Positions 53,553-55,626 of a DNA stretch of 64,000 nucleotides are shown here, one piece after another. The notes beneath the pieces were generated by a model. It was not told the origin of the DNA, made no database searches, and saw only the letters and a program-made list of their open reading frames with translations. The translations under genes were made by a program, and so were the position numbers. How positions within the stretch are numbered: position 1 is the first letter of the stretch; each line of letters begins with the position of its first letter. Source of the stretch: an uncultured Flavobacteriaceae bacterium (GTDB lineage Bacteria > Bacteroidota > Bacteroidia > Flavobacteriales > Flavobacteriaceae); NCBI GenBank assembly GCA_905182835.1, contig CAJJDI010000001.1, positions 37,781 through 101,780 of the forward strand. Direction: 5' to 3'.

Positions 53553-53560
53553 TATTTTTG
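53553..53560 (+). promoter_or_regulatory. TAnnTTTG -7 element (TATTTTTG)
   Basis: Exact motif 17 nt upstream of ATG 53578. Confidence 0.35.
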
Positions 53561-53577: not shown

Positions 53578-55626
53578 ATGCGCAAGAATTTATTTATAAT
53601 ATTATTTATATACTCTAATTTTATTTTTTCCCAATATGAAATAATAATTGAAGCTACAGTGTTAGACTACACGACTAATAAGCCTGTAAGTCTAGCAAAC
53701 GTAAGTTTTAAGTATACCAACGTTGGTACCTTTACAAATAATTCGGGTAATTTTAATTTAAAATATGATGAAAAATTAATTTCTCTAGAGGATGTTTTTG
53801 TAATAAATGCAAAAGGGTTCAAGTCTCAGGAGATAAAAGCCTCCGAACTATATAAATTTCTGTTAAACACCAACAAGTTTTATTTAAAACGAGAAAATAC
53901 AATAAATAGTTGGGTTAAGGATTTATCGTTGAGCACAATTGAAGATGCACAACCCAAATTGTTTGGAAAAATATTCACTGTTTCTGGACCAATTCAAGGA
54001 GCCACAATTAGGATAAAAAACTCACTGATAGAATCTCAATCTGATTTTGAAGGCTATTTTAATATCGATGCAGAAGTTGATGACGTATTAATTATTAATT
54101 ATTTAGGGATGACTGAAAAGCAGACTGTAGTAGTTGATTTTAATGATTTATACATATTATTAAAAACGGAAGCTCAAATTTTAGATGAAGTCGTTTTGTC
54201 TTCATCAAAAAACGAAGACAATGAGGTTGATACTGGTTATGGCAAAAAAAATGTTGATGCTGTTGGCTTTTCGAACTCAACAATTACCAAAAAAGATATT
54301 TCTCCAGGAGCTAACAATTTATTAGATGTTATTAGGGGTAGATTTGCTGGAGTTAAAATAGAGGGATTTACCACGCCTAGAATTATAATTAGAGGAGGTA
54401 CCGGATCAATGAATACGCCAGCTTATGCCATCTATGATATTGATGGCTTGATTTTTTCAGACTTCCCATATTTTGTTAACCCACAACAAATTGAAAGTAT
54501 GACAATTTTAAAGTCATACGGTGCAACTAACCGTTATGGAAGCGTTGGTAGAGGAGGTGTGTTTGTAATTAAAATGAATAACCTGTATAAAGGGTCTTCT
54601 CAGATTTTAGACTCTGCACTAATAAAAGGAAATGACTATGCCGAAGAACTAAACATGATTAGTTCAGAAAACAACTCTAAATATATTTTAGAACTTGAAC
54701 AAGCTTCTTCTTTTGAAAATGCGAAAGAGATATATTTGAACCAAACATCATCATTAGAATTTAAATCTATCCCTTACTATTTTGACAGCTACGATTACTT
54801 CGTAAGATGGAACAAAGATTTTGCTTTTGCTATTTTGACTAGCGCGGTTTTGTCTGCTAAAAGTAATCCAAAGGCTTTAAAAGCTATGGCATATAAAATG
54901 GAGACAATTGGCAGAAATAATGATGCTGAATTGATATATGAGCATTTATTTAAAATAAGACCTACTCACGAACAATCCTATAGGGACTTGGCTTTGATTT
55001 ATGCAAAAAACAAGAAGTATGTATTAGCTGCAGATATCTATAAAAAAATTCTACTTAATTTGATTGATGAAGTTGAAGTTTTAGGTCTTCAAAAAACAAT
55101 TGCTAATGAAGCATATCATCTATACACAACGAATCGTGAAGCTTTTGATTTTAAAAACTTCCCGATAAATATTTTAAAAAAATTATTGCCAGACCTAGAC
55201 CTTAATAAAACTCAAAAAATAAACAACGCTAATTTATCACCTATTATTAAGCCACAAGATTTTGGTTATGACTATAGAGTTGTTTTTGACTGGAGCGATT
55301 CAAATATTGAATTTAATGTTCAATTTGTTAGCCCTTCAAAAAAGTTCTTCAACTGGTCTCATACTAAATTTGAAAATAAAAAGCAGTTAGTTGACGAAAT
55401 AAAATTTGGTTACAATACCGAAGAGTTTATAATAGATGACTCTCAAAAAGGAGAATGGCTGGTCAACATTGACAGCTTTAGTATAGAATCAGATATTAAT
55501 CCTACATTTTTAAAATATACGGTTTATAAGAATTACGGCAGAGGTAATGAGATCCACAAGACTAAGTTTATAAATCTAAATAAGTTAAATCAAAAAATAA
55601 CTTTAGATAAGCTTTTCTATAATTAA
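53578..55626 (+). CDS. Multidomain protein: carboxypeptidase-like regulatory domains, orphan TonB plug, TPR, DUF2135-like C-terminus
   Basis: Two CarboxypepD_reg-like segments, plug-like ANNLLDVIRGRFAGVKIEG...IRGGTGSMNTPAYAIYDIDGLIF...SMTILKSYGATNRYGSVGRGGVFVIKM, TPR-like helices, C-terminal VVFDWSDSNIEFNVQFVSPSKKFFNWSH...YTVYKNYGRGNE. Confidence 0.75.
   Translation: MRKNLFIILFIYSNFIFSQYEIIIEATVLDYTTNKPVSLANVSFKYTNVGTFTNNSGNFNLKYDEKLISLEDVFVINAKGFKSQEIKASELYKFLLNTNKFYLKRENTINSWVKDLSLSTIEDAQPKLFGKIFTVSGPIQGATIRIKNSLIESQSDFEGYFNIDAEVDDVLIINYLGMTEKQTVVVDFNDLYILLKTEAQILDEVVLSSSKNEDNEVDTGYGKKNVDAVGFSNSTITKKDISPGANNLLDVIRGRFAGVKIEGFTTPRIIIRGGTGSMNTPAYAIYDIDGLIFSDFPYFVNPQQIESMTILKSYGATNRYGSVGRGGVFVIKMNNLYKGSSQILDSALIKGNDYAEELNMISSENNSKYILELEQASSFENAKEIYLNQTSSLEFKSIPYYFDSYDYFVRWNKDFAFAILTSAVLSAKSNPKALKAMAYKMETIGRNNDAELIYEHLFKIRPTHEQSYRDLALIYAKNKKYVLAADIYKKILLNLIDEVEVLGLQKTIANEAYHLYTTNREAFDFKNFPINILKKLLPDLDLNKTQKINNANLSPIIKPQDFGYDYRVVFDWSDSNIEFNVQFVSPSKKFFNWSHTKFENKKQLVDEIKFGYNTEEFIIDDSQKGEWLVNIDSFSIESDINPTFLKYTVYKNYGRGNEIHKTKFINLNKLNQKITLDKLFYN

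Follow-up and report, generated by a model that had tools for sequence, protein, structure and literature searches.

A SusC-type plug without a barrel in a reduced flavobacterial member of a widespread TPR-DUF2135 protein family

The 682-aa protein encoded at positions 53578..55626 of the window (the whole stretch of 64,000 nucleotides analysed, from an uncultured marine Flavobacteriaceae bacterium) represents a reduced form within the widespread VIT-vWA-TPR-DUF2135 family, and it carries a SusC-type plug. Approximately 347 amino acids, including the vWA domain, are missing from it, and a free plug lipoprotein is encoded in the same genome, all of which goes beyond the initial annotation of this gene. 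The architecture and origin of the protein are well supported. With regard to its role, the best reading, to which we give about an even chance, is that of a Sec-exported and most likely periplasmic scaffold or adaptor with a co-opted plug, an adaptor role being suggested by the domain types. Plugs are usually regarded as nothing more than the gate of a TonB-dependent barrel; the present one is maintained by strong selection across a large family that lacks barrels, and the same subtype also occurs as a free lipoprotein. The features of the gene, numbered along the window, are as follows.

53578..55626, plus strand: whole gene, 682 aa, CarboxypepD-like domain 1 (CPD1) - NTE/CPD2 - TonB-box-like motif - plug - TPR - DUF2135
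53578..53634, plus strand: predicted signal peptide, residues 1-19; hydrophobic stretch in the sequence with no lipobox Cys, helix 2-16 in the AlphaFold2 model
53635..53907, plus strand: CarboxypepD-like domain 1, residues ~20-110; PF13620, and 38.5% identity with residues 1-109 of a 1004-aa relative
53905..53937, plus strand: junction, residues ~110-120, where the 1004-aa relative has ~347 extra amino acids (X domain and vWA) by BLASTP and alignment
53959..54168, plus strand: CarboxypepD-like domain 2, a SusC-type NTE, residues ~128-197; PF13715 and Foldseek
54178..54198, plus strand: TonB-box-like motif ILDEVVL, residues 201-207, in a disordered linker and conserved in relatives
54223..54579, plus strand: SusC/RagA-type plug, residues ~216-334; PF07715, SusC and RagA structures, and dN/dS
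54676..55185, plus strand: TPR-like helical solenoid, residues ~367-536 (~10 helices); AlphaFold2, with TPR models weak on this protein and matching most relatives
55255..55623, plus strand: DUF2135-type beta domain, residues 560-682; profile of VIT-vWA relatives without a plug, and a model of its own

The gene is an open reading frame with an ATG start and no internal stops, in a draft genome (G000) of 48 contigs that is 82% complete. Its N-terminus is predicted to be a Sec-type signal, and neither a lipobox nor a T9SS tail is present in the sequence. As named from sequence, the flanking genes encode a protein resembling enoyl-CoA hydratase and a bacilliredoxin-like one of 136 aa on the opposite strand; there is no SusD lipoprotein among the neighbours, and no PHROGs match was obtained that would point to a phage origin. 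Just 5' of the gene, at 53553-53560, stands TATTTTTG, which fits the Bacteroidota -7 motif, TAnnTTTG, a weak match in such AT-rich DNA.

Every module named in the initial annotation, namely CarboxypepD-like domains, a SusC-type plug, TPR-like helices, and a DUF2135-like tail, was borne out by structure prediction, the AlphaFold2 model of the whole protein (computed from an alignment of 54 homologues) having a mean pLDDT of 83.7. The model begins with a signal helix and two beta sandwiches; a disordered linker at residues 200-214 then leads to the plug, and a further linker to about 10 TPR-like helices and a beta-rich tail. The modest whole-chain Foldseek E-values (3e-4 to 1e-3) reflect how little of the protein any one module makes up. 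In Pfam, PF13620 was matched on residues 24-86 at 32.5 bits (cut-off 32.3) and PF13715 on residues 130-206 at 65.8 bits (cut-off 32.2). The second of these domains, the NTE, matches in Foldseek the isolated NTE domains of BT1762-63 (6ytc) and SusCdex (9hfj), with which it shares its fold and its position before a TonB-box-like motif (PMC7782687); unlike them, it is preceded by another CarboxypepD domain and is not followed by a transporter.

The plug was identified by PF07715 on residues 229-328 (27.5 bits; cut-off 23.9) and by the NCBIfam SusC/RagA model TIGR04056, which matches the protein at 8e-30 with its best stretch at residues 137-411, a match that covers only the first 281 of the 981 model positions and reaches 103.9 bits against a cut-off of 368.25. 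Residues 137-368 were aligned by phmmer with solved SusC (1.2e-10), and Foldseek matches that include the plug were returned for RagA 6sml_B (E 8e-4) and SusC 8aa4_A (E 1e-3). The protein therefore resembles the SusC/RagA-type TonB-dependent transporters (TBDTs; TIGR04056; PF13715, PF07715, and barrel) in the order NTE, TonB-box-like motif, plug, and in having a plug that matches solved SusC and RagA; it differs from them in having TPR and DUF2135 modules in place of the barrel and no adjoining SusD. The 22-stranded C-terminal beta barrel is absent, the plug being followed by helices, a 123-aa beta domain, and the stop codon, and not one of 114 full-length relatives has a barrel (0/114). The earlier claim of a periplasmic adaptor rather than a transporter is consequently sustained in its second half, since neither the protein nor its 114 relatives possess a barrel, and its first half is plausible, given the Sec-type signal and the lack of a lipobox or T9SS tail.

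The region behind the plug contains about 10 consecutive helices (368-536) with pLDDT mostly ~90-96; TPR models are sub-threshold on the protein itself in Pfam and match most of its relatives. PF09906 is likewise not called on this protein in Pfam, the homologous tails of relatives exceeding the cut-off at 41.5, 39.8, 51.6, and 66.1 bits. A non-circular profile, built from 20 VIT-vWA relatives only, all without a detected plug, matched the protein at 3.2e-31 over TPR and tail and at 2e-14 for the tail alone, with none of 200 shuffled sequences matching. Judged by this profile, the C-terminal half (TPR-DUF2135) is homologous to that of the bacterial VIT-vWA-TPR-DUF2135 proteins (PF08487, PF13519, PF09906), from which the protein differs in lacking both VIT and vWA and in carrying the NTE and plug before the TPR. 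When modelled alone, the tail reached a pLDDT of 90.6. No solved relative of it was found at a significant level (best Foldseek E 0.06; sequence-profile search likewise), and the attempt to read a function of DUF2135 from structure was dropped for that reason.

The initial annotation had called the protein unusual. Its architecture is common in the Flavobacteriaceae, and no characterisation of it was found. A profile of the post-plug (C-terminal) half was searched against 396 Bacteroidota genomes, in which full-length members scored E < 1e-58 before a gap down to ~1e-13, and at 1e-20 the 301 genomes examined from its own family, the Flavobacteriaceae, include 99 with members. Among the named relatives are those from Kordia, Gilvibacter, Altibacter, Aquimarina, Maribacter, Muriicola, and marine MAGs, e.g., MED-G126. 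From the best hits, 114 full-length members (not a census) were extracted and annotated with local profiles: an N-terminal VIT-vWA is found in 42 and a plug is detected in 85. Of the 72 non-VIT members examined, 67 have a detected plug; 20 VIT forms yielded no plug and no CarboxypepD domain. The commonest non-VIT architectures are NTE-plug-TPR-DUF2135 (40) and vWA-NTE-plug-TPR-DUF2135 (23), and several genomes carry two to five tandem copies. The predicted common core of the family is TPR-DUF2135, and its fullest form is VIT-vWA-NTE-plug-TPR-DUF2135. No paper describing the family was found in the open-access literature searched; within the same literature DUF2135 is mentioned nowhere, and no paper joins “TonB-dependent receptor plug domain” with “VIT domain”, or VIT domain, vWA, and Bacteroidetes. 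The family is widespread and apparently unstudied.

The reduced state of the 682-aa protein is apparent from its BLASTP alignment with the 1004-aa relative, in which residues 1-109 pair with 1-109 (38.5%) and residues 120-681 with 457-1002 (46.4%), a layout which indicates that the ~347 amino acids of the X domain and vWA of the relative are missing here. VIT is absent from this protein and from every non-VIT form. In a tree of the C-terminal half, the protein and six short forms constitute a clade of seven rows that is sister to the 1004-aa CPD-vWA-NTE-plug form (SH-aLRT 96), and the label changes needed are one for VIT, eight for vWA, and eleven for the plug. As several neighbouring branches carry vWA, a loss of vWA and X would be the simpler reading, the direction being unprovable from the C-terminal tree. 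A simple pattern suggests an intact vWA metal site in 18 of 27 non-VIT members and a degenerate one in the nearest relative, which would fit a vWA domain on its way out.

Strong purifying selection acts on the plug of this family. In close orthologue pairs, its dN/dS values are 0.021, 0.035, and 0.073, about equal to those of the DUF2135 domain, synonymous sites being near saturation in more distant pairs. In a plug tree (119 rows, 109 columns, quick search), a single clade (SH-aLRT 95) unites 67 non-VIT family plugs with seven plug-only lipoproteins. Most plugs of VIT forms fall among those of TBDTs and interleave with them (row L017, labelled TBDT, is actually a VIT-form member), and several captures or exchanges are therefore possible. 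The family plugs are also distinct in their motifs: the KDAS-like motif typical of TBDTs occurs in 14 of 23 TBDT plugs but in none of the 67 family plugs, whereas the hairpin YG..[GA].GG marks 45 of 67 family plugs and 0 of 23 TBDT plugs. The strand-R-G motif of TBDT plugs is retained in 44 of the 67 and in the present protein. The Pfam Plug model matches just 26 of the 54 members of the alignment used for AlphaFold2, for which reason some lines may have a plug that has degenerated or can be dispensed with.

The free plug was encountered in the same genome as a 135-aa putative plug-only lipoprotein (G000:C20:7749-8153 = L044:4747-5154, minus strand; Pfam Plug 29.1 bits). Its best matches beyond its own orthologues are family plugs (61% to the 682-aa protein, 8.5e-33), SusC plugs lying mostly at 28-40%. 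Seven such putative lipoproteins of 131-147 aa, all without NTE and without TonB box, are nested in the family plug clade.

L044:4747-5154, minus strand: plug-only putative lipoprotein
L045:3867-4271: plug-only putative lipoprotein
L046:5030-5434: plug-only putative lipoprotein
L047:5713-6117: plug-only putative lipoprotein
L259:4384-4827: plug-only putative lipoprotein
L260:4429-4824: plug-only putative lipoprotein
L261:4291-4719: plug-only putative lipoprotein

A subtilase-like ORF of ~925 aa adjoins the lipoprotein gene in six of the seven loci examined; that of L044, the one tested with Pfam, comprises S8, PKD, and a T9SS sorting tail. The free lipoprotein provides the best evidence that this plug subtype would be useful without a barrel. 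Further plug-only small proteins of 137-178 aa were seen at L262:1483-1953, L262:3643-4056, and L263:3709-4179, which lie among TBDT plugs in the tree, and also at L031:606-1142. It seems that plugs without a barrel have originated on more than one occasion.

The initial annotation had also looked to other Bacteroidota and to conserved neighbours. The family was found across the Bacteroidota; the conserved neighbours are mostly unrelated and look like chromosomal housekeeping genes of two loci. The one envelope partner is a protein of ~380 aa (CarboxypepD - X domain - CarboxypepD) with 28 copies in 27 loci beside short family members, of which three examples are given below.

L031:7365-8519: partner protein
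L183:5690-6832: partner protein
L223:5715-6851: partner protein

Fused versions of it occur inside 1000-aa proteins. In the genome studied here it does not adjoin the 682-aa gene, only its CarboxypepD part having been matched there, and a conserved operon partner was dropped as a functional clue.

Under the preferred reading, the protein would be a short member of the Bacteroidota TPR-DUF2135 family in which a SusC-type NTE-plug cassette has been placed before the TPR. The non-VIT members would have kept this plug as one lineage and vWA would have been lost repeatedly, in this line together with the X domain, so as to join CPD1 directly to the NTE; we infer this direction of domain changes. 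The plug may now act as a folded docking domain, independent of any barrel of its own, with TPR and DUF2135 binding other envelope proteins and the whole acting as an adaptor, to which contact with TonB through LDEVV would be a possible, optional addition. The modules beyond the signal are of kinds known for protein binding.

Should TonB contact instead be central, the protein would be a TonB-energised non-transporter, in which TonB binds LDEVV, pulls the plug, and mechanically switches TPR-DUF2135 or a bound partner. SusC likewise has NTE, TonB box, and plug in this order, and in Bt1763 the box VDEVVV occupies the same place and is essential, its deletion or mutation to Ala abolishing function (PMC7782687). 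The motif is also nearly invariant among the 54 aligned homologues (L202 in 53, E204 in 46, V205 in 50) within a linker that is otherwise variable and, at residues 200-214, disordered (pLDDT < 50), and a strict pattern for the box matches 53 of 75 plug-bearing members, compared with 12 of 16 SusC controls. However, an LxEVV-like motif stands behind CarboxypepD domain 1 in 24 of the 28 plug-less partner proteins as well, such that it may be a trait of CarboxypepD proteins and have nothing to do with TonB, and the box is thereby weakened as evidence that TonB is used; in the nested plug-only lipoproteins the box is absent. No TonB_C (PF03544) was found in the 82% complete genome either, although its TBDTs imply that a TonB must exist there, and the gap is read as incompleteness of the genome or a diverged TonB. 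We consider this explanation unlikely.

Somewhat less likely still is that the plug enters a separate outer-membrane barrel, orphan or belonging to another TBDT, and closes or regulates it. The strong selection on the plug fold and the retained strand-R-G motif would suit such a role, for which the T9SS offers a functional precedent in the separate Plug protein that closes the SprA pore from the periplasm (6H3J; PMC7463736), an analogy of possible role only, as neither the 682-aa protein nor the plug-only lipoprotein has a sequence match to it in PDB searches. Against it, each of the 11 TonB-type barrels detected in the genome lies in an ORF that matches a plug-bearing ORF by position and length, which makes it less likely that an orphan barrel awaits a plug in trans; none was seen in this 82% complete genome. 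The C-terminal TPR and DUF2135 would, in addition, need room below the barrel.

It is doubtful that the plug is a relic, an accidental and structurally tolerated insertion without a specific role, with TPR-DUF2135 doing the work. The 20 VIT forms without a detected plug or CarboxypepD domain would accord with this, as would the many members whose plugs fall below the Pfam threshold, but the plug evolves at a dN/dS as low as that of DUF2135, persists in 67 of 72 non-VIT members, and recurs in the same subtype as a separate lipoprotein. Finally, a broken or truncated SusC gene fused during assembly of the 48-contig draft is ruled out for practical purposes by intact, full-length orthologues of the same length (80-81% identical, with conserved neighbours, in independent assemblies) and by dozens of more distant members of a wide family.

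Beyond the adaptor reading of this one protein, it is conceivable, as a tentative generalisation, that flavobacteria use SusC-type plugs as autonomous, barrel-independent modules, whether built into VIT/vWA-TPR-DUF2135 scaffolds or free as lipoproteins; TonB may address some of these plugs, in which case TonB energy would drive something other than import. If the plug works alone, it would be a general envelope module, and gene names such as “TonB-dependent receptor plug” would mislead. At ~680 aa and with no membrane barrel, the present protein is a convenient form for testing the plug outside a barrel and the involvement of TonB.

Several other gene neighbourhoods of the family are of note. 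Four tandem NTE-plug-TPR-DUF2135 genes followed by a partner gene occupy L081:3029-10334, and an MG2-domain (alpha-2-macroglobulin-like) protein lies beside a short family member at L037:7603-10317. A small protein with the motif RVQRGQRGY.PPP adjoins a vWA form at L036:9700-10197, where it has no Pfam match, and a VIT form at L038:5353-5877.
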